A stretch of DNA of 64,000 nt from Hydrogenovibrio crunogenus (GTDB taxonomy: Bacteria > Pseudomonadota > Gammaproteobacteria > Thiomicrospirales > Thiomicrospiraceae). The notes below the pieces were generated by a model. The model ran no database searches. It saw nothing but the letters and a program-made list of their open reading frames with translations, and was not told where the DNA came from. Location of the stretch: NCBI RefSeq assembly GCF_004786015.1, contig NZ_CP032096.1, forward strand, positions 186,001 to 250,000, given 5' to 3'. Shown here one piece after another: positions 37,518 through 55,814 of this stretch (positions within the stretch are counted from its first letter, which is position 1; each line of letters starts with the position of its first letter). The translations under genes and the position numbers were made by a program.

Positions 37518-37522
37518 GTTGT
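37518..37522. repeat. Target-site duplication, left copy
   Basis: GTTGT directly precedes the left transposon end and is repeated at 55381-55385 directly after the right end. A 5-bp duplication is the known product of Tn7-type transposition. Removing one copy and the element restores the comM frame. Confidence 0.95.
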
Positions 37523-37587
37523 TGTCAACTCCAAAATTATTTGATAATTACAAAAATAAATGAGAATCTACAAAATTATTTGAGAAT
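37523..37587. repeat. Left transposon end with three contiguous TnsB-type sites
   Basis: After TGTCAACT, three direct repeats of a 20-bp unit follow head to tail: 37529-37548, 37548-37567 and 37568-37587. The third, CTACAAAATTATTTGAGAAT, is closest to a consensus; shared core letters are ACAAAA, T and TGA-AAT. The tight packing resembles the end of Tn7 that carries overlapping TnsB sites. Binding by TnsB is inferred from position and from copies at the opposite end. Confidence 0.8.
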
Positions 37588-37652
37588 AAGGTTCTGTTTT
37601 AATTTGTTTCAAATTTTGCTTCTGTTCAGCCTTTTAAATCAAAGGAGGCTGA

Positions 37653-39455: not shown

Positions 39456-39758
39456 GTGCCTGCTAAAACAATAGCCATTGCTGCCATAATTGCAGTCAGT
39501 GGTGTCACTAATGACTCTCCAAAGGAGAAAGTCCTTTTTGGTGGCGATATGGACCGTATTGCAACGGAACGCTGCATTGATGATGACAGAGATATTTACA
39601 AGGGTTTTACGCTCACATCCGATTATAAACTAGGATATTTTAAGGTTAACTGTCAGATTCTTGAGACAACAACTGGTGATTATTATGCAGCCAAAGGTGT
39701 GTATCATAAATACTCGGATATTATGAAAACGTTAATTGTATTATTTGAAAAGCGGTAA
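39456..39758 (+). CDS. Small protein of unknown function
   Basis: 100 residues, not recognised. The GTG start directly follows the stop of the TnsE-like gene, with GGTAGGG upstream. Residues 3-16 (AKTIAIAAIIAVSG) are hydrophobic and could be a weak signal or anchor; the rest contains two cysteines (in TERCIDDD and KVNCQILE) that might pair outside the cytoplasm. No catalytic motif is visible. A true gene is likely because of its tight spacing, but the start is uncertain. Confidence 0.5.
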   Translation: MPAKTIAIAAIIAVSGVTNDSPKEKVLFGGDMDRIATERCIDDDRDIYKGFTLTSDYKLGYFKVNCQILETTTGDYYAAKGVYHKYSDIMKTLIVLFEKR

Positions 39759-39774
39759 TTTACGGAGGTTTACA

Positions 39775-40005
39775 ATGTCTAAGAAAAGCACTCATGTGGT
39801 ACCAAATAAAGAACGTGGTGGTTGGGATATTCGGCAGTCTGGTTCAGAGAGGTCGTCCGGTCATTTTGATACTAAAAAAGAAGCTGAATCTCGTGCAAGA
39901 GAAATAAGTCGTAATCAGGAAACTGAATTGATGATTCACAATAAAGATGGAAAAATTGCCGAAAAAGATAGTCATGGCAATGATCCCCATCCTCCGAAAG
40001 GATAA
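39775..40005 (+). CDS. DUF2188 protein
   Basis: 76 residues from the ATG at 39775, which follows ACGGAGG; a longer frame from 39736 is unneeded. It matches DUF2188: HVVPNKERGGWDIRQSGSER, then FDTKKEAESRAREISRNQ and ELMIHNKDGKIAEKDSHGND. These small cytoplasmic proteins are common in mobile and accessory regions; their role is unknown to me. Six bases before the next small gene. Confidence 0.85.
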   Translation: MSKKSTHVVPNKERGGWDIRQSGSERSSGHFDTKKEAESRAREISRNQETELMIHNKDGKIAEKDSHGNDPHPPKG

Positions 40006-40011
40006 AGTTTT

Positions 40012-40356
40012 ATGATGAGTTTTAAAGATTATCTCGCTTGTGATGATGTAAATAAAATTACCGATGTTACTGACCAATTTCATTACGAAGACATTAGTAA
40101 TGAGCATAGAGATGAGGATAGCCAATTAGTTTCTTGTGGTCAGGATGATTCATATAATGAACTCAAGTATATTTATAATCAACATTTGTCTGTCTATGTT
40201 GAGGAAGGAGATATAACTAAGGAACAAGCCATAAAAGCTCTTTGCGAGGTTTGTCATATGTTTGATTCAGAGCGGCGTAATCGTGACGAGTTCTATCATA
40301 AGTTGTCTAGACTTCTAGAGGTGGAAGTTCCATTTCCCGGTTGCAGAGGCAGATAG
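40012..40356 (+). CDS. Acidic small protein of unknown function
   Basis: 114 residues, not recognised. Acidic and soluble; YNELKYIYNQHLSVYVEEGDITKEQAIKAL and RNRDEFYHKLSRLLEVEVPF are probably helical. It starts with two consecutive methionines after AAGGATAAAG and lies six bases after the DUF2188 gene, so the two are probably one transcript. No motif suggests an activity. Confidence 0.6.
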   Translation: MMSFKDYLACDDVNKITDVTDQFHYEDISNEHRDEDSQLVSCGQDDSYNELKYIYNQHLSVYVEEGDITKEQAIKALCEVCHMFDSERRNRDEFYHKLSRLLEVEVPFPGCRGR

Positions 40357-40366
40357 AAAATTTTAC

Positions 40367-40816
40367 ATGTTTTATTTTCATCAGTTTTTTATATTCCTTG
40401 TTTGGAGTATTGGTTCATTAAATACCTCTGTTGCTTCTGAGAAAAGTTATGGTTCGGTTACTGTGGATGAAGTCACTAGTATTTATGATGGTGATACATT
40501 TCGTGTAAACATCCATTCATGGCCTAAAATTGCAGGGAAAAGGATGCCTGTCAGAATAAATGGCATTGATACGCCAGAGTTAAGGGCAAAGTGTCAGTTT
40601 GAAAAAGACCTTGCAGTTAAGGCCAAGCAGTTTACTGTTTCAATGCTTAGATCAGCTAATAAGATTGAGTTGATGAATATTAAGCGAGGGAAGTATTTTC
40701 GAATTATAGCTGATGTTCTGATTGACAGAAAAGATTTGGCTAAAAGTCTAATTGCAAAAGGTTTAGCTGTTAAATATGACGGTGGTACTAAGGTTGATTG
40801 GTGCGAAAAAGACTAA
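40367..40816 (+). CDS. Exported staphylococcal-nuclease-like protein
   Basis: 149 residues with an N-terminal signal (FFIFLVWSIGSLNTSVAS). The SNase core is evident: VTSIYDGDTFRV with calcium ligands Asp41 and Asp43, VRINGIDTPELR with catalytic Arg63 and Glu71, and KYFRIIADVLI with the second catalytic arginine Arg112. Two cysteines (Cys76 and one near the C-terminus) may pair in the periplasm. It should cut DNA or RNA outside the cytoplasm. Possible roles are destroying incoming DNA or nutrient scavenging. The gene is transposon cargo. Confidence 0.88.
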   Translation: MFYFHQFFIFLVWSIGSLNTSVASEKSYGSVTVDEVTSIYDGDTFRVNIHSWPKIAGKRMPVRINGIDTPELRAKCQFEKDLAVKAKQFTVSMLRSANKIELMNIKRGKYFRIIADVLIDRKDLAKSLIAKGLAVKYDGGTKVDWCEKD

Positions 40817-40874
40817 GTTAATTAATGAGTTATTTTAGAATCGAGTTTAATAAAAAATTTTATAGGGTAAGTTT

Positions 40875-41792
40875 GTGACATTTCATATTCCTGACGAAGG
40901 ACATCATTTCTTTGATCAAACTGTTGGTAAAGTTAATACTTTGATTTCCAAAAAGGTATGGGCTGAAATTGAAATGCTTTCTTTTAGTGCTTGGTTAAGA
41001 AACTTTAAAACAGATGAAGAAAAATATTTTGCAGCTCATCTCTTAGACGCACTGATTTTTCGAAGTAATAAAATGATACATTCCAGTTATTTCGATATTT
41101 TCAATCAAAGAATTCCGAAGGCATTAAGAGATAGTGGGCTTCAAAATTTAATAAGAGATTATTCAAATAATTTACGCAGAAATATTGAATTTCCACTAAA
41201 GTTTGTAACTGTAGAAAAAAGCTCTCCTGGCGCCAGTGGCGATTTGTTTATACGTTCTTTTAGAAGGCATTTGAGAATTAAACAACATCATGTAATAAGC
41301 TTAGATACAGCTGTCCAGCAAGCGGATACGATTGATGTTCTGGTTTTCATTGATGATATTACTGGTACAGGGCGTCAGTTTTCAAAGTGCTTGAATAAGG
41401 TGTATGCAAATAGTGATAGAAGTTTGTATGAAATTTTTAGGCATAAACTAATTATTTATTGTCCTCTTATCGGCCACACAAAAGCTATAAACAAAATAGA
41501 TGCTAACTTTCCTTCAGTTCAAACTTTGCCTGTAGAGATATTAAGTGATGAACATGGATTTTTTTATTCAACAAATGGAAAATTCAGGGATGGGGTAAAT
41601 TCCATCGATGATGCTAAAAACTTTTATAAAGACATATTTTATAGACGAGGTTTAAATCCAGGTTATACTTTTGGGTATAAAAAGCAGGCATTAACATGCT
41701 TTTTTTCAAACTTTTCTTCTCCAAATAATAGCCTGCCAATTTTTTATCATGATGAAGATTTAGATAAATGGAACCCTCTTTTTGGACGATAA
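40875..41792 (+). CDS. Phosphoribosyltransferase-like protein of a conflict system
   Basis: 305 residues. A clear PRPP-binding loop, VFIDDITGTGRQ (158-168), follows a hydrophobic strand, as in type I phosphoribosyltransferases. The N-terminal half is helical and unlike biosynthetic enzymes. It resembles the PRTase-CE family, recalled from comparative work on prokaryotic conflict systems where it pairs with an ORC/CDC6-like ATPase, exactly the next gene here. GTG start after AGGGTAAG. Stop and next start are contiguous. It may be the effector, acting on nucleotides or another target; that is inference. Confidence 0.7.
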   Translation: MTFHIPDEGHHFFDQTVGKVNTLISKKVWAEIEMLSFSAWLRNFKTDEEKYFAAHLLDALIFRSNKMIHSSYFDIFNQRIPKALRDSGLQNLIRDYSNNLRRNIEFPLKFVTVEKSSPGASGDLFIRSFRRHLRIKQHHVISLDTAVQQADTIDVLVFIDDITGTGRQFSKCLNKVYANSDRSLYEIFRHKLIIYCPLIGHTKAINKIDANFPSVQTLPVEILSDEHGFFYSTNGKFRDGVNSIDDAKNFYKDIFYRRGLNPGYTFGYKKQALTCFFSNFSSPNNSLPIFYHDEDLDKWNPLFGR

Positions 41793-43811
41793 ATGATGAA
41801 CGAAAATATCAAAGATGCATTCACAAAAAATCGAGCCGAATACTATCCTGATGATGTATATGGTTTGTTTGCAATCCCTCCATTTGTAAAGAATTATAAC
41901 TTTATCAATACAAACCAATCATGGCGGATTGTTGGGGCTAGAGGAACTGGCAAAACGATGTTTTTAAAATCACTTTGTCATGCCACGGTCTTCTCGCCGA
42001 AAAAAAATGATATTAGTTTGGAGTCAATTAAAAATATTGGTATTTATTGGAGGCCTGACACACAGTTGTGTTCTCTAATTACCGATAACTGGCTAGGTTC
42101 GCAATGGAAAATGGCTTTCTTGCATTATTTAACTTTAATTTTATTGGAAGAAATTTATTACTCATTAAAAAGTATTCAGAAATCAAAGCTTGAACTTGAT
42201 GGAAAGGAATTACTCAAGATAGAACTAGATCCAGTTTTAAGTGAATGTTTTGAGCAAACAATTAAATGTATATCTGATTTAAAAGATTTTTGTAACCAAC
42301 AAAAACTAAAGCTATCATTTTGGTTGAATAATTATAATAGTGTTGAGCAGCCAAAGTTTCTATCCCCATTTCCTTTAATTCCGACAATTGTTGATGACAT
42401 TTCTAGGCAAGTAAGTGAGTTGTATGAAATGTCTTATATGGTTTATGTTGATGAATACGAAAATCTTGCTGCTGGTCAGCAAGCATTAATTAATGATTTT
42501 ATTAAGCATAGCAGACCGAGACTTAGATTCAGTTTTGCTATGAAAAAATACGCCGATATTTGTTGGGAAACAAGTGGTACCGAAAAAATAAGTGAGACCC
42601 ATGATTTTAGAACAATAGATCTAGATGGCGAAACTTCTAGTGAAGAATTCAAATTAATGGCAGCTGAGTTTGTTGTTTATAGGTTGAGGCATGTCGGAGC
42701 AATCGACTCAGATCCAGACTATGATAATCCCGAAATTCTTACAGAAGAAAAGCAATTGAGTTTGAGATTGGATGATTATCGAGTTCAAAAATTTGTTGAT
42801 ATAGCATCAAAAATTTTTCCATCATGTAGCTCTAGCGATGTTGCGGCAGAAATTATTAATGATAAGACTTTGAGAAATAAGGTGTTGAGCATAATAAAGC
42901 TAGGCTTGAAAAGTTCTGGCATTCAGGGAAATGCTATTAAACCTCAGGATTTTATTATTGATAGTCAACCAGAAGCATCAATCGTTTCTGCGGCGATCCT
43001 TAATAGAAAAAAACAAGATCCGCAGCAGGTATTGAATGATCTTATCGAGTGGGCAGGTGGCAATAAAGAAAACAATCAGTTTAAAGGGTGGATTGAAAAT
43101 AATATTTTCGGCGTAATTTTTATGATTTACAAATCCTTTCCTAAACGAACTTGTCCCTTGTATGCGGGGTTTGACCGGTTTTGTATTTTGTCTAGAAAAA
43201 ACATGAGACATTTTCAAGAGTTATGTCATGAAGCACTTATTGAGTCATTATCAGAGTCGGGTACTAAGTTTTCTTCAATACCAATTAACATACAAGCGCA
43301 TGCAGCTCGTAGAGTTAGTGAAAAGAATTTGATAGAAGTTGTTCCTAGTCTCGGCCAACATGGTGAAAGCCTAAGAAATTTTGTAGCGAGATTGGGGATG
43401 ATATTTTCCGTAGCTGCAAAAAGATATTCTCAAAGCGAACCAGAAATAAATCACTTTTCTATTAACATTTCTTCAGGATCAAGTTTGCCAATTGAATTGC
43501 AGGATCTGATTCGAAGTGCGAAAGTTTGGAATGTTTTGTTTGAAGAAAATAAAACCAAAAGTAAATCAGATGATATTGCAGATAAAGACTATATTTTAAA
43601 CCCTATTTTTGCGCCCTTTTATGGGATTAGTTACAGAAAAATTCGGAAGATCGATTTTAATGAGAATGAAGTAAATGTTCTTTTTCTTGGAGGTGAAGAG
43701 GAATTTAACAATATTTATAAGCGTTATTTATCACGCTGGAAGAATGCTGAAGTTGAAGTCGAAGTTGAAGTTGGTAAAGTTATTTCTCATCAAGACCAAA
43801 TCGATTTCTAG
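41793..43811 (+). CDS. ORC/CDC6-like AAA+ ATPase
   Basis: 672 residues. Walker A is GARGTGKT (48-55) and Walker B VYVDEYENL (Asp220-Glu221), in a STAND/ORC-CDC6-like layout: IVGARGTGKTMFLKSLCHATVF and SFAMKKYADICWETSGTE (sensor region). Residues about 400-640 form a separate C-terminal domain that I do not recognise. The gene starts directly at the stop of the PRTase-like gene and is followed 11 bases later by an unknown gene. It may act as the sensor or switch of the system. The family name is recalled from descriptions of conflict systems. Confidence 0.7.
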   Translation: MMNENIKDAFTKNRAEYYPDDVYGLFAIPPFVKNYNFINTNQSWRIVGARGTGKTMFLKSLCHATVFSPKKNDISLESIKNIGIYWRPDTQLCSLITDNWLGSQWKMAFLHYLTLILLEEIYYSLKSIQKSKLELDGKELLKIELDPVLSECFEQTIKCISDLKDFCNQQKLKLSFWLNNYNSVEQPKFLSPFPLIPTIVDDISRQVSELYEMSYMVYVDEYENLAAGQQALINDFIKHSRPRLRFSFAMKKYADICWETSGTEKISETHDFRTIDLDGETSSEEFKLMAAEFVVYRLRHVGAIDSDPDYDNPEILTEEKQLSLRLDDYRVQKFVDIASKIFPSCSSSDVAAEIINDKTLRNKVLSIIKLGLKSSGIQGNAIKPQDFIIDSQPEASIVSAAILNRKKQDPQQVLNDLIEWAGGNKENNQFKGWIENNIFGVIFMIYKSFPKRTCPLYAGFDRFCILSRKNMRHFQELCHEALIESLSESGTKFSSIPINIQAHAARRVSEKNLIEVVPSLGQHGESLRNFVARLGMIFSVAAKRYSQSEPEINHFSINISSGSSLPIELQDLIRSAKVWNVLFEENKTKSKSDDIADKDYILNPIFAPFYGISYRKIRKIDFNENEVNVLFLGGEEEFNNIYKRYLSRWKNAEVEVEVEVGKVISHQDQIDF

Positions 43812-43822
43812 GATTTATTTAG

Positions 43823-44785
43823 ATGAAGTTTTTATGTGATCAGAAAGCGATTTCCATTGAAGGAATTAATTTAAGAAGTGATTACGACTGCGTGTTCATT
43901 GGAACTCAAGTTGATTTAGATGACCGTTCGGAGTTGATAAATCGATACATTGTAGATGTCTATTCAGAGCAAAGAATATTTAAGGTTTCATATGAAAGTC
44001 AAACTTTTCAAATGATTATTAATGGAGTTGAATACACTCTTCCGGAAGCAGTTGAATATATAAAAAGTATTTCAGGAAATCGTGTGCTTATTGAATGCAC
44101 AACAATCGACTTTGTTGAACTTACACTCATATTGCGAGAAGTCTACGATAAAGTAGACTCAATTGACTTTTTATATTTAACACCAGATGCTTATGGTAAA
44201 GCCTTATCTCCATCAATTAGTAGACACGATTTTCGCTTAAGTGACTCTTTCAGTAAGTCTATGCCGGTGCCAGGCTTTACCCCAATGCTTGGTTCTCATG
44301 GCAGCAAGGTCAATTTAGTTGCGTTTGTTGGTTTTGAAGGAAGTAGGCTTGGTAGAGTTTTGAATGATGATGAAAATTCAACAATAAAAAAGCTAATGAT
44401 TGCTTTCGCAATTCCCCCATTCCAATCTGGCTGGGAAAATCATTCAATTTTTCAACACACACAATTTCTCGAAAATAATGACTGTGATGAAGCTGAATTC
44501 ATTTCTGCGAACTCTCCTTTATCAACTTATGAGTTTTTATCGAAAAGAGTTGAGCCAACAATAGAAGATAGTGATGTCTTACAGTTAGCTGCCTATGGAA
44601 CTAAACCGTGTTCTATTGGTGCTTCAATTTATGCAGTTGAAAAACTGAATGAGCAGGCTAGTAGAATTGAATCTGGAAATTACTCAATGGGGTTGCAAGT
44701 GTCTTTGCAGTATGATTTTCCGAACAAATCGACAAAAAGATCATCAGGCATTGGACATTATTATTTGTATAGTTTAACGGTTTAA
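43823..44785 (+). CDS. Unknown third gene of the PRTase/ATPase operon
   Basis: 320 residues, not recognised. It starts with alternating strands and helices (YDCVFIGTQVDLDDRSELI, NRVLIECTTIDFVELTLILREV, IDFLYLTPDAYGKAL) that look Rossmann-like; a middle segment NLVAFVGFEGSRLGRVL and a C-terminal SMGLQVSLQYDFP follow. No membrane segment or nuclease motif is visible. Its stop lies within the end of the convergent methyltransferase gene (12-base overlap). A substrate-recognition or nucleotide-sensing subunit is possible but unproven. Confidence 0.6.
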   Translation: MKFLCDQKAISIEGINLRSDYDCVFIGTQVDLDDRSELINRYIVDVYSEQRIFKVSYESQTFQMIINGVEYTLPEAVEYIKSISGNRVLIECTTIDFVELTLILREVYDKVDSIDFLYLTPDAYGKALSPSISRHDFRLSDSFSKSMPVPGFTPMLGSHGSKVNLVAFVGFEGSRLGRVLNDDENSTIKKLMIAFAIPPFQSGWENHSIFQHTQFLENNDCDEAEFISANSPLSTYEFLSKRVEPTIEDSDVLQLAAYGTKPCSIGASIYAVEKLNEQASRIESGNYSMGLQVSLQYDFPNKSTKRSSGIGHYYLYSLTV

Positions 44786-45973
44786 ACCGATTATAGGCAG
44801 GTTTAAGATGTCGCTGTTCGTTAGAAGTTTTGTACAGCTACCTTTTGAGTGAATGTCTCGCCAGCTTTTACTATCTTCGGTTTGTAGAGACTCAAAAACT
44901 ATAGGTGCAATTTTTTTAGGCAAATTTAATCTGAATACAGAATCTGTGATAACAGCATTCCCGTAAGTAATTAGAGCTTGATGTTGATGGCAACTACGGC
45001 CAATTCTTGGAATTAGAATATCGCTTTTTTTAGCAACGTGTTTTGCATTGTACCTTTGCATCAAATCTTCGCAGCCTTCTAGGCTAATGTCTTGAGTTTC
45101 AAATTCTTTAAAGGAGGAGCTATGAAAAAAAACAGTTTTATCATGTTCTAACTGTTTTTTTGTTTTGTTCCCACGGTCTAAAGAATAAATTACTTCCCCA
45201 AGCGAAGTGTATTTTTCTTTTAAAGCTTTGAACCTTTCTATTTGAGATAGGTATTTCACGTCAGCCCTTAAAACAGAATGCTTTTTATCAACGGTTTTGA
45301 TTTTGTTCACTTGACCGTTTTTTGAAATCGTACCAATTTGAATTTTTAAGTCTGGATTAATTGTTTTTTCACCCGACACTAAATATGTTCTGACTTCTGC
45401 TTCATCAAAATATTGCTCGTTAATTTCATAAATTGAGATGTTTCTAAGGTTCTTAAAAATATACGTTCTAACAAAGTCCATTTTCTCATTAGAAATGATT
45501 GACTCAGGAAGTATCAGAGAAACTCTACCCCCAATTTTTGTTGCTTCTATATATTTGGCAATAAAAATAATTTCAGCACGAATACTCGTTCCTATTTTTA
45601 ATATTTTTCCAGAATAGTTTCTTTCACAAATATCTGCTAATTGAGGTGTGACTTTTGTTTTTATAAATGGAGGGTTTCCTAATGAGATGTCGTAAAATTC
45701 TTTCTCAAATTCGTATAGTAGAGAATCTTCATTTCTAACATCCCAAGTGCACTGGGATTGCTTTAAATATTCAATATTTTTTGAATCAATATCATAAGCA
45801 TGAAAATAGCTGTTAACTAACTTCGCTTGAAGGGGTTTAAGTAATGAGCCGTGGCCACATGTCATATCAATAATTTTCAGAGGCTCTTTAGCTTCTGAAG
45901 ATATAACTAGTTCAGACATTAATTCACTGATGTATTCTGGCGTGTAAAATTGACCTAATTTTGATTTTTTCAT
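44774..45973 (-). CDS. N6-adenine DNA methyltransferase
   Basis: 399 residues of the gamma-class N6-adenine type. The X motif GQFYTPEYISELM opens the protein (7-19), SAM motif I is DMTCGHGSLL (36-45) and catalytic motif IV is NPPF (100-103). The C-terminal 170 residues should recognise the target sequence. Its stop overlaps the convergent gene by 12 bases; its start faces an HTH regulator across 93 bases containing an inverted repeat. It probably protects the sites cut by the nearby type IIG enzyme, as separate methyltransferases do in Eco57I-like systems. Confidence 0.88.
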   Translation of the reverse strand: MKKSKLGQFYTPEYISELMSELVISSEAKEPLKIIDMTCGHGSLLKPLQAKLVNSYFHAYDIDSKNIEYLKQSQCTWDVRNEDSLLYEFEKEFYDISLGNPPFIKTKVTPQLADICERNYSGKILKIGTSIRAEIIFIAKYIEATKIGGRVSLILPESIISNEKMDFVRTYIFKNLRNISIYEINEQYFDEAEVRTYLVSGEKTINPDLKIQIGTISKNGQVNKIKTVDKKHSVLRADVKYLSQIERFKALKEKYTSLGEVIYSLDRGNKTKKQLEHDKTVFFHSSSFKEFETQDISLEGCEDLMQRYNAKHVAKKSDILIPRIGRSCHQHQALITYGNAVITDSVFRLNLPKKIAPIVFESLQTEDSKSWRDIHSKGSCTKLLTNSDILNLPIIGLNR

Positions 45974-46000
45974 AAAAAAGCACGTCTTTTCATTTTATTT

Positions 46001-46060
46001 AATATGATTTTATCAAATCTATTATGTATAATCTACTAAAAATTATTATAAAATCATATT
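46001..46060. promoter_or_regulatory. Inverted-repeat operator between methyltransferase and HTH gene
   Basis: AATATGATTTTAT (46001-46013) and ATAAAATCATATT (46048-46060) are perfect 13-bp inverted repeats in the 93-base divergent promoter region. The right half ends six bases before the HTH gene ATG, so its occupancy would block that gene. A dimeric HTH protein encoded next door is the natural ligand. Confidence 0.6.
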
Positions 46061-46066
46061 TTTATT

Positions 46067-46438
46067 ATGCGAAATCATATAGATAAAGAGTCGTTAGAAA
46101 AAATTTGTGATCGCTTTTTGCAGGTCTCTGAAGATTGTTTAGGGTTGAACATGAAAACTCTGGCAGAAAAGCTGGGCTATACCAACCAATCGACGTTAAC
46201 TAAAGTGAGAAAACGAAAAGGATTTATTGGTCCGGATAAACTAAACCAATTTGGATCTTTAACCAATGAAAAGGGACAACATCCGAGCATCCACTTTATT
46301 ATTACTGGAGAAGAGCCGGTTTTTGTTGATAAAAAAATAAAGAGAATTGAAGATGATGAAATTGATTTGCTTCTAAATCGTCTTGTTAGCAAGCTTGGAA
46401 AAAATAAAGCTAAAGCTCTTTTAGAGCTTATTGTATAG
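46067..46438 (+). CDS. HTH regulator of the restriction-modification island
   Basis: 123 residues. An N-terminal helix-turn-helix (TLAEKLGYTNQSTLTKVRKRKGFIGPDKLNQF) is followed by a 50-residue helical tail that may dimerise. It is placed between a divergent methyltransferase gene and the restriction gene 32 bases downstream, like control proteins of type II systems. No good Shine-Dalgarno sequence precedes the ATG, and the operator half-site nearly touches it. The regulatory role is inferred from place and fold. Confidence 0.7.
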   Translation: MRNHIDKESLEKICDRFLQVSEDCLGLNMKTLAEKLGYTNQSTLTKVRKRKGFIGPDKLNQFGSLTNEKGQHPSIHFIITGEEPVFVDKKIKRIEDDEIDLLLNRLVSKLGKNKAKALLELIV

Positions 46439-46470
46439 GCTTAAAGAATAGTACTCTGGATAAAAATATT

Positions 46471-49400
46471 GTGAACAAAATAGAAAAAGCATTTAATCAA
46501 ATAAATACAAAGCGCCAAAAGCCTTGGTCTGGAGAAGAAGAGGTTAGATTAGCTTGGATTCAAGCAATTGAAGGAGCGACAGGGTTACATCTGAATGCCG
46601 AGCGTGATCGAAAAGATGCAAGCCTTAATCATGTCATTGTTGAATTTAAAGCTCCAAGATTATTTAACGGTAAAAAGACTAGCCCTAAATTTATTGAAGC
46701 AACAGAGCAGCGCTTACTTCCATATATTCAAACTGAATCACAAAAGACAGGTATACCTGAATCTGATTTTATCGGGATTGCTATTGATGGTGAACATGTT
46801 TGCTTTGCTCAGGTTGTAAATGGCCAGGTTCATTCTCAGCAACTTATTCCATTTTCTGAGTATGCCGTAGGGATAGTAATTGATGCCTTTATTTCTGACA
46901 CAAGAAAAGCATTAACAACAGAAAACTTGTTAGCTGATTTTGGTCATGGTTCTCCGGGTGCTAAAGAACTAATGCAAAATCTGTCAGATGGTTTGGCTAG
47001 TGAAATTCAGCAGCCAAAAAATAACAAAGTAAAAATGTTATTTGAAGAGTGGAGAACACTTTATGGTCAGGTAGCTGATATGTCAGTTCTTCAAGCTGAA
47101 GCGATTTCTAAAGAAATGTCTTTCACATGGAATGGTAAAGTTGAAGATTCGCTACCTGCAAGACTATTTGTCATCCATACCTATAACTCTCTACTCATAA
47201 AGCTAATTGCAGCTGAAATAGTCTCTGCACATGGATTAACATCTATTGAGTACCCAGCCCAAGCAATGGCTGCAATGCAAGACGATCAAACGCTTGTTAA
47301 TTCATTGGAATTTGAAATTGAGCGTTCCAAAATTTTTGAACAGGCCGGCATAAAAGGGTTCGTTGAAGAGGCAATATTTAGCTGGTATTTGGATATCATT
47401 AAACAGCAATTGGCGGCTAACGAAAACACTTTACTAATCTCATTAAGAAAGGTTTTATCTGTACTTTCTTTTTATAGTTTGACTCAGCTTTCAAACACCA
47501 GAGATGTCTTGAGAGACCTGTACCAAGGTCTTGTACCTGGAAAACTTCGCCAGTCACTTGGTGAGTTTTATACACCTGATTGGCTAGTAGATTTTACGCT
47601 ATCACAGGCAAATAAAGGTTCTTGGCTGGATAAAAGAGTGCTCGATCCAACAGCGGGGTCAGGAGCCTTTTTGATTGCCTTGATTCGCAAAAAAATAGCA
47701 GAAGCAAGAGTTAATAAGTGGAATGACTTGGAAACACTAGAGCATGTTTGTTCAACGGTATGGGGGTTTGATTTAAACCCTCTTGCTGTTCAAACAGCTC
47801 GTGTAAATTTTCTTATGGAGATTTCAGGGCTTTTAAAGTCATGCAAAGGCATAGACATTGAATTACCTGTACTACTGGCCGATGCTATTTACTCACCCGC
47901 ACAAAATCCGAAAGATAGTCAAAAAATTGTGCAGTATAAGATTGGTAGCCAGGTTGCTAAATTAGATATTTTACTTCCATCTGAGCTGGCGCTGAATCGT
48001 GAACGTCTTGATGATGTTTTTGCAAGAATGGGAGAGGATGTCGAATCAGATCTTGAGTTTGATAAGGTAGAAGAAAATTTAGTCAAATACGGTTATGTAT
48101 CAATTGAAGAAATGTCTGATTGGTCAGAGCCTTTATCGTATACCTACAACCAAGTATTAGAATTACATCGAAAACAGTGGAACGGGATTTGGTTCAGAAT
48201 CGTTCGAAATTTCTTTTGGTCTGCAACTGCAGGCGAGTTCGATTGCATTGTAGGTAATCCCCCCTGGGTTCGTTGGTCAAAACTTCCAGGTGCTTATCGC
48301 GATAGGGTGAAGCCAACCTGTGAAGACTACGGTATTTTTTCTAAAACGAAGCGTCATGGTGGTAATGAGTTAGATATTTCGGCCATGATTACATATGCAG
48401 TATCTGATAAATGGTTGAATGATGGGGGTTGCCTTGCATTTGTTATAACTGGTACGCTTTTCAAAAACCCATCATCAGCCGGTTTTAGAACCTTTAAGCT
48501 CGAATCAACTAATCCAGATTCCGCATTTCTTCAACCTATCCATATCGATGACTTTAAAGCACTGAAGCCATTTGAAGATGCTTCAAATCACACTGTTGTA
48601 TCGGTATTCAGAAAAACCAAAGTGCCTGCAGTATACCCCGTCCCGTACACAATATGGAATGCAAAAACGGGCCAGAAAAAAGCTATACCTCCAACAGTTA
48701 GTCTGTCTGATATGACAAATATAATTGAACCAGATTATAAGGAAGCATTTCCTGTTAGTGAAGATGGCTCACCTTGGGCTATTTTGAAGACTGGTAGGTT
48801 TGATGCAATCAAATATTTGTCGTCTGAGTGTAATTGGACACAGGGGAGAAAAGGGATTACAGCAGATTTAAATGGTGTCTATTTCGTTCCTATATTACAA
48901 GATAATGGAAAGCTTGTTGAAATTAGAAGTCGTCCAGAAGCTGGTAGAAAGGACATTGGAGTCGCCAAAACTCAGTGGGTTGAACCTGACTTGCTTTATC
49001 CTCTAATTAAAGGCGCTAGTGATTTTGAGCCGTGTTACCTGAAGCTTAAAGATCCGAAATATAACAAAGAGCGTCTCTATACCTTTGTCCCTAATAATGC
49101 CATTTCAAAAGAAGCGTATCAGGAATGCGAAGATAATTTGAACAGCCCAGTTCTCAAGAAAACTAAAGCTTGGTTTAAAGGATTTGAAACGTTATTGTTA
49201 GATCGTTCAACTTATCGCAGACAAATGAAGAACGCACCGTATCAGGCTGTTTACAATGTTGGTGACTATACCTTTAAACCTTGGAAAGTCGTTTGGCCTG
49301 AGATGTCATCAAGTTTTTACGCTGCCGTTGCAGCTTCTGATGATATGCCGGTAATTGGCGAGAGAGTTTTTATTCCAGATCATAAAGTTTATTTTGCTTC

Positions 49401-49686
49401 ATTTGACAATAAAGAAACGGCTTATTTCTTATGCGGTCTCCTTAATACAGAAACGGTTCGAGAATGGCTTGACAGCCACAATGTATCTATTCAGGTTGCT
49501 AATGTGTTTAAACATTTGTCATTGCCTATTTTTGATGACTCGAACAGTGACCATATCAATCTATCAATTCTTATAGAGCAAGTCCATGGAACGCATGATA
49601 AAAAAGCAAGAAGTAAACTTTTATCTAAGGCACTAAGTCTTGCAGAAAATATTTTATTAAAATGGAGTTCAAGTAAAACGATTTGA
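46471..49686 (+). CDS. Type IIG restriction-modification enzyme
   Basis: 1071 residues, fused nuclease and methyltransferase. An N-terminal nuclease-type domain has Glu58-x-Lys60 in NHVIVEFKAP (PD-(D/E)xK fold). A helical connector is followed by the N6-adenine methyltransferase: LGEFYTPDWLVDF from about residue 363, SAM motif DPTAGSGAF (392-400) and NPPW (596-599). The last 350 residues, including KIYFASFDNKETAYFLCGLLN, should carry target recognition. GTG start with a weak ribosome site. The enzyme cuts unmodified DNA and also modifies one strand; the adjacent N6-adenine methyltransferase may modify the other. Confidence 0.88.
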   Translation: MNKIEKAFNQINTKRQKPWSGEEEVRLAWIQAIEGATGLHLNAERDRKDASLNHVIVEFKAPRLFNGKKTSPKFIEATEQRLLPYIQTESQKTGIPESDFIGIAIDGEHVCFAQVVNGQVHSQQLIPFSEYAVGIVIDAFISDTRKALTTENLLADFGHGSPGAKELMQNLSDGLASEIQQPKNNKVKMLFEEWRTLYGQVADMSVLQAEAISKEMSFTWNGKVEDSLPARLFVIHTYNSLLIKLIAAEIVSAHGLTSIEYPAQAMAAMQDDQTLVNSLEFEIERSKIFEQAGIKGFVEEAIFSWYLDIIKQQLAANENTLLISLRKVLSVLSFYSLTQLSNTRDVLRDLYQGLVPGKLRQSLGEFYTPDWLVDFTLSQANKGSWLDKRVLDPTAGSGAFLIALIRKKIAEARVNKWNDLETLEHVCSTVWGFDLNPLAVQTARVNFLMEISGLLKSCKGIDIELPVLLADAIYSPAQNPKDSQKIVQYKIGSQVAKLDILLPSELALNRERLDDVFARMGEDVESDLEFDKVEENLVKYGYVSIEEMSDWSEPLSYTYNQVLELHRKQWNGIWFRIVRNFFWSATAGEFDCIVGNPPWVRWSKLPGAYRDRVKPTCEDYGIFSKTKRHGGNELDISAMITYAVSDKWLNDGGCLAFVITGTLFKNPSSAGFRTFKLESTNPDSAFLQPIHIDDFKALKPFEDASNHTVVSVFRKTKVPAVYPVPYTIWNAKTGQKKAIPPTVSLSDMTNIIEPDYKEAFPVSEDGSPWAILKTGRFDAIKYLSSECNWTQGRKGITADLNGVYFVPILQDNGKLVEIRSRPEAGRKDIGVAKTQWVEPDLLYPLIKGASDFEPCYLKLKDPKYNKERLYTFVPNNAISKEAYQECEDNLNSPVLKKTKAWFKGFETLLLDRSTYRRQMKNAPYQAVYNVGDYTFKPWKVVWPEMSSSFYAAVAASDDMPVIGERVFIPDHKVYFASFDNKETAYFLCGLLNTETVREWLDSHNVSIQVANVFKHLSLPIFDDSNSDHINLSILIEQVHGTHDKKARSKLLSKALSLAENILLKWSSSKTI

Positions 49687-49709
49687 GCAAAATCTTTACG
49701 GAGTGAAAT

Positions 49710-50351
49710 GTGAATGAATTAGCTGTTTTGATAGGCATAATACTTTTTCCAGGATTTATCTCAGCGATAACTGCTGAAAAAATTACTTCCCATGTTAAGC
49801 CCTGGGGTGCTTTGAAGTATGGGATCTATTCTTTTGTGCTTGGTGTTATGTCCTATGCTGTGATTCAAGCTGTAATATTGATTTGGCAAGTTATATTTGA
49901 GAACCCAGTTCAATATTATTATTTATCAGTCTGGTCTTTTATTTTCGATCCCTCATTAAAATTTGAACTTGCAGATGTTTTTTGGGCTACCATGATCGCA
50001 ATTCCGCTTGGTATATTAGCCGCGGCAATTGTTTATCATAAACGTTTAAATAGAATAGCTAAGTTTTTTAATGCGTCGTTTAAATATGGAGATGAAAATC
50101 TATTTAGTTATTTTTTGAGTGCAGAAGATACTGATTGGATTTATGTAAGAGATAAAGAAAAAGGTTTGACTTATCAAGGAAGGGTTGTGTCTTATTCAGA
50201 AAATGAATCTTTTCAAGAACTAGTTATGATGGATGTGACAGTGTTTGGGTATGATGATTCTGAAGAGTATTACTCCGTTCCAAAGTTATATTTATCAAAA
50301 AAATTGGGCGGTTTCTCTATAGAGTCTATTCCCAATGAGTTATTAGAATAG
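49710..50351 (+). CDS. DUF6338-like membrane protein
   Basis: 213 residues. Three hydrophobic segments: AVLIGIILFPGFISAITA, YSFVLGVMSYAVIQAVILI and FWATMIAIPLGILAAAIVY. The cytoplasmic tail from about residue 110 contains TDWIYVRDKEKGLTYQGRVVSYSENE, which resembles the DUF6338 family. GTG start after ACGGAGTG. It is followed by two tiny genes that end in the same Pro/Lys motif. The family recall is moderate; the function is unknown. Membrane proteins with small partners are common in defence islands, but I see no effector domain. Confidence 0.65.
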   Translation: MNELAVLIGIILFPGFISAITAEKITSHVKPWGALKYGIYSFVLGVMSYAVIQAVILIWQVIFENPVQYYYLSVWSFIFDPSLKFELADVFWATMIAIPLGILAAAIVYHKRLNRIAKFFNASFKYGDENLFSYFLSAEDTDWIYVRDKEKGLTYQGRVVSYSENESFQELVMMDVTVFGYDDSEEYYSVPKLYLSKKLGGFSIESIPNELLE

Positions 50352-50359
50352 GAACAGTC

Positions 50360-50494
50360 ATGAGCGATAAGATAAGACGAAAAGATGGTGGAAGAAACCC
50401 CGTAGATCGAGTGATTAATGGTGTTGATAGAACAAAGCCGACGGATAGGATAAAACCTAATTCACCTCCACCTGCACCAAAACCCAAAAAATGA
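50360..50494 (+). CDS. Lys/Pro-rich microprotein 1
   Basis: 44 residues: starts MSDKIRRKDGGRN, has TKPTDRIKPNS in the middle and ends PPPAPKPKK before TGA. Very basic. AGGAACAGTC precedes the ATG, and the gene starts eight bases after the DUF6338-like gene. It is clearly related to the next microprotein. The shared sequence and spacing make a real gene likely. Function unknown. Confidence 0.65.
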   Translation: MSDKIRRKDGGRNPVDRVINGVDRTKPTDRIKPNSPPPAPKPKK

Positions 50495-50511
50495 GAATTG
50501 GAGATAAGTTA

Positions 50512-50625
50512 ATGAGTGATAAGACAGGTTTTAAAGATGGTCATACAAAGGGTCATACCAAGCCTACTAACAGCGAAAAAGTAAAGCCAAGTTCAGCGCC
50601 TCCGACTCCAAAACCAAAAAAATAG
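50512..50625 (+). CDS. Lys/Pro-rich microprotein 2, paralogue of microprotein 1
   Basis: 37 residues: starts MSDKTGFKDG, has TKPTNSEKVKPSS and ends APPTPKPKK before TAG. TTGGAGATAAG precedes the ATG, a better ribosome site than that of its paralogue. Ends four bases from the convergent tniQ stop. It shares with its neighbour the MSDK start, TKPT block, KP-S and PP-PKPKK end. Function unknown. Confidence 0.65.
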   Translation: MSDKTGFKDGHTKGHTKPTNSEKVKPSSAPPTPKPKK

Positions 50626-50629
50626 AAAG

Positions 50630-51772
50630 TTAATTTGTTTCCCTGAGATTTTTGACAAGTCTCACTGCCTGATTTAGGTTGATCTTCTTTTTTAACCGTG
50701 TTTGAAAATAATTAATGATGTTCTTTTTTTCAGTATCACATGTCAAAAAACGGTGTTCATGGATATTGAAGAAAAATGTGTCAGATACCCAAAATGGAAA
50801 TTCCAAATATGGCGTTTTTATCATGTGGGAGGACGTGTCAGTGATCTTACAAGAATTCACAAAAGTCTCGGGCCAATCCTGTAGCAAATGATAAATCATG
50901 ATGAATCCTGTGCGCCGTAAATTAATACCTAATCTTTCTGGTTCAATATTATGTCCTAGCGCTTCACGATGATGCATTTGTTGCAATTGCAACTCTCTCT
51001 TGAGATGAACAAATAGTCTTTTACCGTTAGAGCTACAAACAACAAATGAGAGTAATCTCCGGATACCCTCAAAGTAAAGATTAGAATAGCAAAAATCTAA
51101 ATTACCAGCTTTCCCGTACCCGGTCGTCGATTGAATAAAATTAACCCGATTGATTCCATACTCTTCTGAAGAAACGTCAATGTATTGAGTTTTTCTAAGG
51201 TCGAACCCACATTTTGAACAATAGGCAATATCCTCTGGGTGGTAAAGAATCTCCCCTTTATGTTTTTGAAGTCTTTTAATGTCGATTGGGTTGTGACATT
51301 TAGGGCATCTGTCATGCATCTGAACAGAATGAAATGGACAGCATGTCATAAAGCCCAGACGCCAGCTTTTTCTAAAATATGGTTGATTTCCATCTTCCGA
51401 TAGGCAACAAGGGCAGTATTGGAGACCAAATGATTTTTTTCGGGTGCGTACTCCCAAAGGCATAACCCATTTTACTTGGGGAGTTTTTTCAGTCTGATTG
51501 TAAAAATAACTGCATGAAGCATAGAAGGTTTGGCTTTGAATTTTATTTTCATCTATGCCTGTATTTTTATTGAGAGTAGTGATTTTTTTAGGGTTTAGAA
51601 AGACATCAATATCTCCCTTCCAAGTATCAGTATCCTCAAAAATCAAAGTGGAAAGTTGGCTTGGTTTTATACCATATTGAAGCGCATTTCTGGCAATCCA
51701 AGACGATACTAGTTCATCATTAAATGGCAGATCGAGTAGGTATCGAATAGTTTTTATCTCATGCGCTTCAAT
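50630..51772 (-). CDS. tniQ: TniQ-family target-selection protein (start uncertain)
   Basis: TniQ proteins link TnsC to a target site; here this should recognise comM. About 380 codons are open if counted from the ATT at 51772. The conserved TniQ start LPFNDELVSSWIARNALQYG lies upstream of the first usable TTG at 51646, so that TTG cannot be the real start. Zinc-finger cysteines are visible: CPCC, then CCPFH and CPKCH, then CSKCG. No in-frame ATG, GTG or TTG occurs between the tnsC overlap and 51646. It may start at ATT (after AGGAAAGAG), at CTG 51730, or be made by -1 frameshifting from tnsC. Confidence 0.85.
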   Translation of the reverse strand: MEAHEIKTIRYLLDLPFNDELVSSWIARNALQYGIKPSQLSTLIFEDTDTWKGDIDVFLNPKKITTLNKNTGIDENKIQSQTFYASCSYFYNQTEKTPQVKWVMPLGVRTRKKSFGLQYCPCCLSEDGNQPYFRKSWRLGFMTCCPFHSVQMHDRCPKCHNPIDIKRLQKHKGEILYHPEDIAYCSKCGFDLRKTQYIDVSSEEYGINRVNFIQSTTGYGKAGNLDFCYSNLYFEGIRRLLSFVVCSSNGKRLFVHLKRELQLQQMHHREALGHNIEPERLGINLRRTGFIMIYHLLQDWPETFVNSCKITDTSSHMIKTPYLEFPFWVSDTFFFNIHEHRFLTCDTEKKNIINYFQTRLKKKINLNQAVRLVKNLRETN

Positions 51773-52665
51773 AACTCTTTCCTTTTTGATGCTGGTACCA
51801 GATTTAATTCGCCAAACACAGAATCATCAATGCAAGGCAAATCATGCTTAATTGCATAAGTAGCCAACTGTTTCATAATGAGTACTACTTCACCAATCAG
51901 GCCGTCACTAAGATAATGCAATTGTTCTATGTAGGGCTTTTTATAAAGATAAGAAGGTTCTTGCAAGGGCAGTCTTGTTTCAATAGATGCAATTAACTGG
52001 GCAAATTTAACCCGATCCCCTTTGTTCTCAAACTTCCACCTTTCAAGTACCTCAACCTGAAAACGATTTGCCAGCTGTGAATCAACTTGGATTGCATGAA
52101 AAGCATCTTCGATACCGGCACCAATAATAGGAATCTTTAAAGTGTTACTTAGGTCTTTAATACTGTTCAAAAATCCTTTTTGAGCATTATAAGAACCCGC
52201 AATGATGTGTTGAATCTCATCAATGATCAACATTCTGGTTTTGCGAGTTTGCATTGCCCTGATTGCCATTTGTCTTTTAACTTCCAAACTGTCGTTTTTG
52301 GCATAAGGAATAATCATTTCTTCGAGCAAGCGAATTAAGAAAGCGTTTTCATCCGGTTTGGCTGGAGCTGAGATGAAAACAATTGGTTGAACATTCGTGT
52401 AAGTATCTTCATCAATTGACATTGGATAACGCTCAGCAAAGCGTTTCAGAATCTGAGTCTTGCCGTTATTGCTGTCACCTACAATTAAAAGATTTGGCAT
52501 TCTTTCTACTTGTGGATAGGAAATGAAGTCTTCTAACCGTTCTAGAATTTGTTGCGCTCTGGGGTATCCTATCCATTTGTCTTCATTAACGTATCTGATG
52601 CGTTCTTCCTTTGAGGCACTCAGTATGTCAAAAGCTTTATCAAGAAGATGGTCGTATTTGCTCAT
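51754..52665 (-). CDS. tnsC: TnsC/TniB-like transposition ATPase
   Basis: 303 residues, an AAA+ regulator that bridges the target selector and the TnsAB transposase. Walker A is GDSNNGKT (63-70) and Walker B MLIIDE (145-150), followed by IQHIIAGSYNAQKGFLNSIKDLSN and the sensor region IPIIGAGIEDAFHAIQVDSQLANRFQ. Its length is close to TniB and the short TnsC of Tn6022-like elements and below Tn7 TnsC (about 555). Its start overlaps the end of tnsB by four bases; its 3' end overlaps the tniQ frame. Confidence 0.93.
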   Translation of the reverse strand: MSKYDHLLDKAFDILSASKEERIRYVNEDKWIGYPRAQQILERLEDFISYPQVERMPNLLIVGDSNNGKTQILKRFAERYPMSIDEDTYTNVQPIVFISAPAKPDENAFLIRLLEEMIIPYAKNDSLEVKRQMAIRAMQTRKTRMLIIDEIQHIIAGSYNAQKGFLNSIKDLSNTLKIPIIGAGIEDAFHAIQVDSQLANRFQVEVLERWKFENKGDRVKFAQLIASIETRLPLQEPSYLYKKPYIEQLHYLSDGLIGEVVLIMKQLATYAIKHDLPCIDDSVFGELNLVPASKRKELLKRMR

Positions 52666-54593
52666 TGGTCAAGCTCCTCAAAAGGCTGAATGTCCTCAAA
52701 ATCTTCATCATCGAAGTCGTTTATACTCGGTGTGACCAAAGAAATTGAATTCTGGTTATTTCTCGCAGACTCTTTTGCAATTGACGGAATTGATTCTTTT
52801 TCTCGGATTGCTTCTTTCTGCTTCATTCTGCGCATATGTTTAGTCTGTTTTAGTGCCTGTTCTGTCAATCGTTTCATTCTAGCTCTGGATTCAAAGATTG
52901 CCTCTTCATCAACCGATTTATATGGATCAGCTTCTTTTGCTTTGCGTTTAAGTTCACGCAATTCCCAAAGAGAAATTGGTGGGTGACTGGTGTCTCGGTA
53001 TGGAACGACAACATAGGCTTTCATATCAGGATCGAAGAAAAAGACCGAACTCAAATCTCTTGGGTCGTATCTAACAATGAATCTCTGAGAACCTTTTCTG
53101 TTTTTATCTGGTTGCTTTATCCACTTGCGTAAAACATCGTGGAAGTAATCAATTCCAAATAATTGAATTCCATATTTCTGGACACTTCTTTCTTCGTAAG
53201 GAAGAAAGTCAATCTTCAATTTAAGTGGGTCGTCAATTTTGGGGGGAAGACCTCTTCCTAGTTGCTCTCCATTTCCAAGAATACCCTGTTTATATTTTTG
53301 GAGGGGCGACATACCTAAATCTGAATGTTTTTCAAGATGATAGTTGTTCACGAGAAATTCTGTGAAATACTGCTCAAATTCAAATAAGGTAAAAATAGCA
53401 TTGTCTTCGGATTGGTATTCCGCCTTATCTTGAACATTAGATTTTGTGGTACCAGGAAGTGTGTGGATTTCTGAATCATTAAAAGTTTTGAATGATCTTT
53501 CAATATGAGGGCCATAACGAGGTGTTTTTGCCGGTCTCTTGATCATATTGAGCTTGTATATCTCACAAGCCCTCTTTAACGATTTCCCGTGAAACTCTTT
53601 TCCGTTATCTGTATGGATAGTGTCCATAAGTCCATAAGCAGGCCAATCTCCTTCAACCTCATGCTCTAGAAGCCATTGCTTTTTATCTAAAATAGCGTGT
53701 GCCAAACAGAGTCCTGTTAATAAAGTGTTCGGCTTTTCCAGTGATATGTAGAATCCCACGACCATTCGGCTGTAAGCATCGATGGCCAGGGTGATTGTAG
53801 GCCTTCCTATATCAAGCCTGTTTTCATCATCAACAATAATTAAGTCTAAAGGAGTATGGTCGATCTGTACTACTTCAAGTGGTTTCTGGGATTGAGGGAA
53901 TTTACCAATCAGCGGTCTAAAATCTTCGCGCCCTTTTCGACCTTTTCTTTTAGAGGCGACTTCTGATGCGGTAAGCTGTGAAATCCGAAACCTAAGGGTG
54001 TTGATGTGAGGGGTAACGAGAAGTTCAAGATTTGAATTTTTTCTTTCCTTGTTTATTTCGTAGATTTCTAATTTCAGATCTCTGTAGATATTGGTAACTC
54101 GCGGCTGAATAGGACTAAGGTAGACACCTATGTACTTCTGTATTAAATCTTCAACCTCCGGTTGTAGGCGACCAGTCTCATTCCGCTTCTTTCTAAGCAG
54201 TGATAAGGGGTTTCCATTCGAGTTCTTGTATTTTTGTAGCTGTCTGTAAGCCGTTGGCTCAGAAATTTCTAACTTATTGGCCACTTCTCTGAGTTGTACT
54301 CTCCTTTCAGCTTCATCATTAATTTGTAAAACTTGGTTGAACAGCATGGCTTTGTTGTTGACCTTAACCCAGTCTTCATCTGGGATCGTTAATAGGTCTG
54401 TGGCTGGTACAATTTCAACAGGTTTTTCTGGATCATCCGGTTTGGATGTCAATTCAGAAACATGCATTTTTTTTACAGTTCCAGTAAATGAACTACGCAC
54501 AGACACGTGCTCTAAATCCAGTACACCAATTACTCTGTAACGAGAGTTGCCGTGAAATACTTCGGAGCCGATTTCAAAATGGGTCTCACTCAT
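52662..54593 (-). CDS. tnsB: TnsB transposase, DDE integrase-core family
   Basis: 643 residues. Binds the end repeats and joins 3' ends to target DNA. The rve core contains Asp245 (VVQIDHTPLD), Asp329 (HTDNGKEFHG) and Glu365 (GPHIERSFK), giving the classic D-D-35-E spacing. An N-terminal helix-turn-helix region (LREVANKLEISEPTAYRQLQKY) precedes it; a Mu-transposase-type C-terminal domain (RYDPRDLSSVFFFDPD) and a charged tail that may contact TnsC follow. Overlaps tnsA by eight bases and tnsC by four, indicating coupled translation. Confidence 0.95.
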   Translation of the reverse strand: MSETHFEIGSEVFHGNSRYRVIGVLDLEHVSVRSSFTGTVKKMHVSELTSKPDDPEKPVEIVPATDLLTIPDEDWVKVNNKAMLFNQVLQINDEAERRVQLREVANKLEISEPTAYRQLQKYKNSNGNPLSLLRKKRNETGRLQPEVEDLIQKYIGVYLSPIQPRVTNIYRDLKLEIYEINKERKNSNLELLVTPHINTLRFRISQLTASEVASKRKGRKGREDFRPLIGKFPQSQKPLEVVQIDHTPLDLIIVDDENRLDIGRPTITLAIDAYSRMVVGFYISLEKPNTLLTGLCLAHAILDKKQWLLEHEVEGDWPAYGLMDTIHTDNGKEFHGKSLKRACEIYKLNMIKRPAKTPRYGPHIERSFKTFNDSEIHTLPGTTKSNVQDKAEYQSEDNAIFTLFEFEQYFTEFLVNNYHLEKHSDLGMSPLQKYKQGILGNGEQLGRGLPPKIDDPLKLKIDFLPYEERSVQKYGIQLFGIDYFHDVLRKWIKQPDKNRKGSQRFIVRYDPRDLSSVFFFDPDMKAYVVVPYRDTSHPPISLWELRELKRKAKEADPYKSVDEEAIFESRARMKRLTEQALKQTKHMRRMKQKEAIREKESIPSIAKESARNNQNSISLVTPSINDFDDEDFEDIQPFEELDQ

Positions 54594-55260
54594 TGATCTT
54601 ATCCTCGAAATGATAGCCCTTTAACCAGGTAAGTTGATTCATATTGAGCGGTATAGATAAGTCCGTTAGGACGAGTTGATTTGCGATTGCATACCAGAGA
54701 GTATTTAGGAATTCCGCTTGTTCCATCTCATTGGTAGAACATAGTGCTAAAAGTTCCTTGATTGACGCAGGTTGCCCTCTGGATAAAATTTTTTGAATGG
54801 TTGCCAGCTGATATTCTTCGTATGGACGGTTTTTGTATGGGAGTAAAAAGGTGACATTTTTTAAAAATGGTGTGTTAATTTCTTGTTCAGTCCATATCTT
54901 AAAGCGCGTGTTAGGTTCTGATTTTAGTTCCTGTATCGCAGCCTTGAATTTTGGCTTTAATTTATCCCAATCTTTTTTAAGATCATTTCTGTATTTAACT
55001 TCGACATACAGTGATAACCCATCTTTGAACTTAATCAAAATATCTGGCGTATAATGTCTTTTTTTACCATTGTGGGTGAATTCAAATCGTCTTGGCTGTG
55101 TTTTGAATTTCTCAACTTGTTCGTCAAATTCACACAAAAGTAGGGCATTGCGTTCAAGGCTAGCTTCAAAGTGAGTATATTCATCACTTTTATCACTGTG
55201 AACATAGCCTGTAATGTTACGATAGTTTAATGGAATTTTTCTTGCAGGCACGGCAAACAT
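54586..55260 (-). CDS. tnsA: TnsA endonuclease
   Basis: 224 residues. Cuts the 5' ends of the element so that, with TnsB, it moves by cut and paste. Catalytic residues fit the restriction-like fold: Glu36 (ASLERNALLL), Asp73 (YTPDILI) and Glu87-Val-Lys89 (LYVEVKYR). The C-terminal helical domain (RGQPASIKELLAL, LNTLWYAIANQLVLTDL) should contact TnsC. A TnsB-type repeat at 55259-55278 touches the start codon, suggesting the operon is controlled by transposase binding. Confidence 0.93.
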   Translation of the reverse strand: MFAVPARKIPLNYRNITGYVHSDKSDEYTHFEASLERNALLLCEFDEQVEKFKTQPRRFEFTHNGKKRHYTPDILIKFKDGLSLYVEVKYRNDLKKDWDKLKPKFKAAIQELKSEPNTRFKIWTEQEINTPFLKNVTFLLPYKNRPYEEYQLATIQKILSRGQPASIKELLALCSTNEMEQAEFLNTLWYAIANQLVLTDLSIPLNMNQLTWLKGYHFEDKINE

Positions 55261-55380
55261 TCTCGTTTAATTTTGTAGAAAAAAGTTTAACATCGAGATC
55301 ATATAAAGTAGATTATCAAATAATTTTGTAGAAAATGACTCATTTACCATCAATATTATCATTTAATTCTGTAGTTGACA
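55259..55380. repeat. Right transposon end with three spaced TnsB-type sites
   Basis: Three copies of the end repeat, inverted relative to those at the left, lie at 55355-55374, 55312-55331 and 55259-55278, with gaps of 23 and 33 bases. The outermost adjoins AGTTGACA. The innermost overlaps the tnsA start codon. In Tn7 the end beside tnsA has packed sites; here the spacing is reversed. Confidence 0.8.
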
Positions 55381-55385
55381 GTTGT
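55381..55385. repeat. Target-site duplication, right copy
   Basis: GTTGT, identical to 37518-37522, directly follows the transposon end. In the intact gene only one copy would be present, encoding the end of Arg-Cys. Confidence 0.95.
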
Positions 55386-55814
55386 CAGGATACGCCGGAA
55401 CAAGTTTTACGTTATCGACGCAAAATATCAGGCCCTTTATTGGATAGGATTGATTGTCATCTAGAAGTGCCGCCTGTTGATTTTGACGCATTAAGTGGTG
55501 AGCGAGAAAAGGGGGCGGAAACAAGTGCTGAAGTGCGCGAACGCGTTATGACATGCCAAACATTGCAAAAAACTCGGCAAGGCTGCCTAAACACCGAACT
55601 CACTCCAAAACAGCTGGAGCAATATGTCACGTTACAGTCAGATTCAAAAAAATTGTTGGAGCAGGCTGTTAATCGTATGGGCATGTCGGCTAGAGGGTAT
55701 CACCGTATTTTGCGTGTCGCGCGTACTTTAGCAGATATGCAGCAACAAGAAGCCGTCCAGATGGCGCATATTGCAGAGTCTATTTCATACCGTTCTTTGG
55801 ATAAGTCGCTTTAA
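55386..55814 (+). pseudogene. comM: comM, 3' part
   Basis: 142 native codons from QDTPEQVLRYRRKISGPLLDRID to the stop, containing the sensor and lid of the ComM AAA+ core (MSARGYHRILRVARTLADMQQQEAVQMAHIAESISYR). The transposon end supplies an ATG at 55335 in frame, so a 159-residue chimera could be made, but it lacks the nucleotide-binding motifs. The stop codon is followed directly by the next gene start. Confidence 0.95.

Follow-up and report, generated by a model that had tools for sequence, protein, structure and literature searches.

A tniQ gene without a standard start codon in a clade of comM-inserted Tn7-like elements, and a candidate AUU start inside tnsC

Our analysis of a 64,000-nucleotide stretch of the Hydrogenovibrio crunogenus genome (NZ_CP032096.1, positions 186,001 to 250,000; hereafter the window, in whose numbering positions are given unless another contig is named) revealed that tniQ of an intact Tn7-like element inserted in comM has no standard start codon. 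The N-terminus of TniQ, encoded ahead of the first such codon, is conserved and translated, and the same state persists in three lineages. The most likely route, in which we place moderate confidence on the basis of sequence comparison, is that TniQ is made from an AUU codon inside tnsC, with its synthesis coupled to tnsC translation. An initial annotation of this DNA had proposed either an ATT start or a frameshift out of tnsC; the observation on which it was based is real, and its interpretation was supported in part, the ATT route being better backed than the frameshift.

The tniQ frame and its missing start codon

A codon-by-codon check of the minus strand showed the tniQ frame, which is the -1 frame relative to tnsC, to be open from 51823, where it is bounded upstream by a TGA (51826-51824), to its stop at 50632-50630, with no ATG, GTG or TTG before the TTG at 51646. 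This agrees with the earlier claim that the gene lacks a standard start and that its frame runs open back into tnsC, whose TAA stop occupies 51756-51754. The Pfam TniQ model (PF06527; E 3.8e-22) matches from about residue 33 of the stop-to-stop frame (about 51727), upstream of the TTG. Across the five relatives described below, 17 of the 33 columns for residues 27-59, all preceding the TTG, are invariant, versus 138 of 329 after it; the corresponding values for the no-start lineages only (n = 3) are 18/33 and 166/329. The placement of the conserved TniQ N-terminus upstream of the first TTG, also made in the initial annotation, was therefore confirmed by both the Pfam match and the invariant columns. 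Since the N-terminus matches the remainder of the protein in conservation, the stretch before the TTG is translated, by a non-standard route. The TTG was rejected as the true tniQ start, with which 33 conserved residues would be lost. A gene finder restricted to ATG, GTG and TTG would begin tniQ there and miss the first 42 residues of the protein proposed to start at AUU; a clone begun at the TTG would probably be inactive, and reconstitution of the transposase needs the correct start. The features of the junction and of the element are collected in Table 1; all offsets take the first base of the tnsC stop (51756) as their origin.

Table 1. Positions of the element, its transposition genes and the sites discussed at the tnsC-tniQ junction
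Feature	Position	Strand	Remarks
Whole Tn7-like element	37523..55380	.	17,858 bp; ends TGTCAACT...AGTTGACA; in comM
tniQ as proposed	50630..51772	-	Start at ATT 51772, 380 aa; open frame back to 51823; Pfam match
TTG, first standard start codon of the tniQ frame	51644..51646	-	Inside the conserved TniQ domain
ATT at +8, alternative near-cognate	51746..51748	-	Not conserved
ACT (Thr) codon	51749..51751	-	Site of the L034/L035 ATG (+5); ACT in every no-start copy
tnsC (TniB-type AAA+ ATPase)	51754..52665	-	Pfam TniB, E 2.9e-68; -1-frame overlap with tniQ
ATA overlapping the tnsC stop (ATAA), alternative near-cognate	51755..51757	-	TTA in L033/L037
tnsC 3' end with the tniQ (-1) frame open	51757..51823	-	Unbroken at least as far as -52 in each of the five lineages
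ATT, proposed AUU start codon	51770..51772	-	Offset -16, 16 bases before the tnsC stop
AAGGA, Shine-Dalgarno-like, for ATT 51772	51780..51784	-	Anti-SD duplex -5.6 kcal/mol
A-AAA-AGG, -1 slip site proposed initially	51781..51787	-	Weak A_AAA tetramer only
tnsB (DDE transposase)	52662..54593	-	Pfam Mu-transpos_C; 4-bp ATGA overlap with tnsC
tnsA endonuclease	54586..55260	-	Pfam TnsA N and C domains

Start states among related elements

A search of 63 genomes of the same bacterial family yielded five close relatives carrying both TnsC and TniQ (L033 to L037; TniQ identity, 59-67%), two of them, L033 and L037, from Thiomicrorhabdus MAGs. In all five, tnsA-tnsB-tnsC-tniQ adjoins the 3' part of comM and the frames are intact; counting the window's element, all six have an unbroken operon except for L037/L082, which is cut by a contig end. 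Comparison of the same junction in these relatives, as suggested in the initial annotation, found the no-start state in L033/L037 and L036 as well, but not in L034 and L035, which have an ATG at +5, five bases past the tnsC stop. A standard start before the conserved region is thus absent in three lineages: the window element (L032), L033/L037 and L036. An ordinary start in relatives, which had been named as evidence against a non-standard one, does occur in these two sister elements, but it is derived on the TnsC tree, where L034 and L035 are sisters (SH-aLRT 97), the window element joins next (89), L033/L037 follows and L036 is the most divergent. The simplest history suggested by this tree is one gain of ATG, the state without a standard start being older.

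However far the proteins have diverged, their conserved residues share the same codon in 35-47% of cases. With synonymous positions this near to saturation, each lineage can count as an almost independent observation. The absence of a standard start common to three independent lineages is more than chance. A sequencing error was also considered and rejected, given the same state in three lineages. In all 28 of the more remote TnsC/TniB-TniQ pairs examined, a standard start lies close to the junction, usually at -1 (NTGA) or +5. On the sequences compared, the missing standard start is a trait of one clade, neither an error nor the norm. No further close relatives were found in viral contigs, in a class-wide sample (369 genomes) or in a phylum-wide sample (398 genomes), and plasmids held distant relatives only, with identity below 40%.

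Routes to TniQ

The best start candidate in the window copy, judged from its sequence context, is the ATT at 51772. The ribosome-binding-like sequence that the initial annotation placed just before it was seen as AAGGA at 51784-51780, with good Shine-Dalgarno spacing. Compared with random positions in the window, its duplex energy falls between the 5% (-6.0) and 10% (-4.9) points, and the rival codons reach -0.2 (ATA 51757) and -2.7 (ATT 51748) versus -5.6 at ATT 51772. The codon at -16 is also ATT in L033, L037, L035 and L036 and is GCT in L034; this ATT is the sole ATT/ATC/ATA/CTG codon at a common offset in all three no-start lineages. When synonymous tnsC codons were shuffled, an ATT common to the lineages at any one offset had a p of about 0.005 and any common near-cognate a p of about 0.06. 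The ATT at -16 is partly a product of tnsC Leu codons, with a chance of 14-23% per lineage. The Shine-Dalgarno sequence is not conserved, being weak in L033 and replaced in L036 by a GAGG spaced for another ATT, at -7. The proposed ATT start is thus backed by its recurrence in three no-start lineages and by AAGGA, but not by the Shine-Dalgarno sequences of L033 and L036, and the exact start codon may differ among relatives. Residue conservation of the tniQ frame in the overlap beyond the constraint of tnsC was not detected (p 0.2-0.9), in a test that was uninformative, and extra conservation was not found for the residues encoded from -16 to the tnsC stop.

With initiation at AUU 51772, ribosomes translating tnsC, or 30S subunits recruited by AAGGA, would begin tniQ in the -1 frame and produce a TniQ of 380 residues. 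Rejection of AUU by IF3 would keep TniQ output low, tied to tnsC translation and inversely sensitive to IF3, and scarce TniQ could make the target-site adaptor limiting for transposition. We infer which codon is used, the coupling to tnsC, the low output and the response to IF3, the last two by analogy with known AUU starts. In Tn7-like transposons, TniQ connects the chosen target to the TnsC-TnsAB machinery. Transposition of AjTn6022 is impaired without TniQ (PMC10293859). Kept in three lineages, the non-standard start would give a translational brake, possibly read by IF3, to a group of elements already known to be controlled through target selectors.

The closest precedents for such a start, by analogy, are IS911 orfB and infC. 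In work by Polard in 1991 and Prere in 2011, orfB of IS911 is said to overlap the preceding gene in the -1 frame and to have an AUU start with a Shine-Dalgarno sequence, resembling tniQ as a transposition gene with these proposed features. IS911 has a proven A_AAA_AAG heptamer and a structured stimulator, whereas the tniQ junction has neither a heptamer nor conserved structure, and OrfB of IS3 is unrelated to Tn7-like TniQ. Control of infC through an AUU or AUC start and IF3 is established, and IF3 represses such non-standard starts (PMC5472188); an increase of 3- to 15-fold is reported for non-canonical starts in E. coli with IF3 fidelity mutations (PMC5472188). Like tniQ, infC (AUU/AUC) and sigR (GTC) have a non-standard start kept by selection, with output repressed by IF3 in these two genes (PMC5472188); unlike tniQ, they are host regulatory genes with starts not known inside an upstream gene, and sigR has a very strong Shine-Dalgarno sequence. 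The proposed tniQ start would be a new case of start control of the IS911 and infC kind, unusual in a Tn7-like target selector, and no published report of such a tniQ start was found in the literature searched. The infC locus of the host itself (L077; G000:C1, about 1818620-1818850, minus strand) is without ATG, GTG or TTG: the first standard start in its frame comes only at codon 55, and AGGAG precedes an ATC. From this sequence, host infC evidently starts at AUC, and the host evidently accepts an AUH start.

Termination-reinitiation at the tnsC stop, with TniQ beginning at ATA 51757 or ATT 51748 in the window copy and at other codons in relatives, is an unlikely but serious alternative. The clustering of standard starts at -1 and +5 in the wider family makes reinitiation at the tnsC stop ancestral, and coupling of this kind is well known (PMC6728339). 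A change of TGA to TAA would turn ATG into ATA, so that the ATAA of the window copy could be seen as a decayed ATGA, and the GAGG of L036 suits its ATT at -7. Against this, the -1 codon of L033/L037 is TTA, a very poor start, the codon at +8 is unconserved, and the Shine-Dalgarno signal of the window copy is far weaker at both codons than at ATT 51772.

More doubtful is a programmed -1 frameshift late in tnsC, with a TnsC-TniQ fusion as the sole product or alongside free TniQ. It could account for an open tniQ frame that reaches further upstream than an AUU start requires: to -52 in five of five lineages, with a p of about 0.004 under synonymous shuffling in a test that was picked post hoc and took in two ATG-bearing copies (about 0.04 with the three no-start lineages only), and to -67 in four. 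AUU initiation reportedly occurs together with -1 shifting in IS911. The A-AAA-AGG named in the initial annotation is present, and as TC-A-AAA-AGG it lies in register with tnsC, such that a slip there would give a -1 shift, but it is absent in L036 and is not a canonical site, which has the form X_XXZ_ZZN, A_AAA being among the less efficient tetramers (PMC4066793). Some A_AAA or A_AAG tetramer is found in the overlap of each copy, but a classical heptamer in none, and the tetramers differ in position between lineages. A strong hairpin lies just downstream in L033, but stable downstream structure is missing in most copies, and none is conserved between relatives; among the copies folded, only L033 had a strong hairpin around the junction. 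The tnsC tail shows an ordinary level of synonymous variation (rank 161 of 287 windows), with no suppression at its 3' end, unlike that of typical conserved shift sites, and no natural in-frame TnsC-TniQ fusion was seen among relatives. The earlier suggestion of a fusion therefore keeps the far-upstream open frame in its favor but lacks a common slip site and a constrained tnsC tail. The wider proposition that slippage yields a TnsC-TniQ fusion in the comM-inserted elements of this bacterial family, with or instead of free TniQ, appears slightly less probable still; if true, the target adaptor would be physically loaded on its AAA+ regulator, and the far-upstream open frame would be explained. 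The L033 hairpin itself, restricted to the L033/L037 lineage, lies around the tnsC stop (about 2560-2630 of L033, minus strand) and pairs AGGTAC/GTACCT inside AAACGG/CCGTTT (z -3.2).

It is very improbable that tniQ is decaying or its sequence wrong, with no functional TniQ made: degraded tniQ remnants exist elsewhere in the host genome (L028) and in G412 (L041), but here three lineages share the same state with intact full-length frames, dN is low and dS saturated, the operon is intact, and the element ends and target duplication are perfect. The L028 remnant (G000:C1:862974-863279) is about 51% identical, carries an internal TGA and lies about 2 kb from L031 (G000:C1:865375-865905), where a second, different TniB-TniQ pair is located, possibly reflecting nested Tn7-like elements.

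The element, its classification and its cargo

The element has inverted ends (TGTCAACT) flanked by a 5-bp target duplication, GTTGT (37518-37522 and 55381-55385). It splits comM into 36416-37660 and 55335-55814; when the flanks are joined, the reading frame of comM is whole again. The right end carries multiple transposase-binding-like repeats of 24 nt, with inverted copies at the left end. The operon of TnsA, TnsB, TnsC/TniB and TniQ, the 5-bp duplication and the repeats at both ends identify the element as Tn7-like. As in the Tn6022-type comM elements (AjTn6022), TnsA, TnsB, TnsC and TniQ are combined with insertion in comM (PMC10293859). Tn6022-type elements have tnsF in the operon and tnsE on the opposite strand, whereas no gene follows tniQ in the operon of the window element, and no TnsF or TnsE family match was found among the cargo proteins scanned. 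Because tnsF is neither located after tniQ nor recognised in the cargo, the element was not filed as Tn6022 proper. The text of the AjTn6022 paper mentions neither 'start codon' nor 'frameshift' (PMC10293859).

At the left end of the element, a 600-aa ORF (37653-39455) had no Pfam, NCBIfam, PADLOC or PDB match; it could encode a divergent target selector of the TnsE or TnsF kind. The cargo at 40875-44785 encodes a PRTase-CE, an ORC-CDC6-like ATPase and a CARF-like protein, matched by Pfam and by PADLOC type III-associated PRTase/CARF models, and this cluster is a possible signalling defence module by these matches. Further cargo includes a separate type II-like N6 methyltransferase (44774-45973) and a type IIG restriction-modification fusion (46471-49686; PADLOC E 1.6e-230). 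Beside tniQ, at 50360-50625, two tandem, similar small ORFs (MSDK...PPAPKPKK and MSDK...PPTPKPKK) apparently represent a duplicated short gene.
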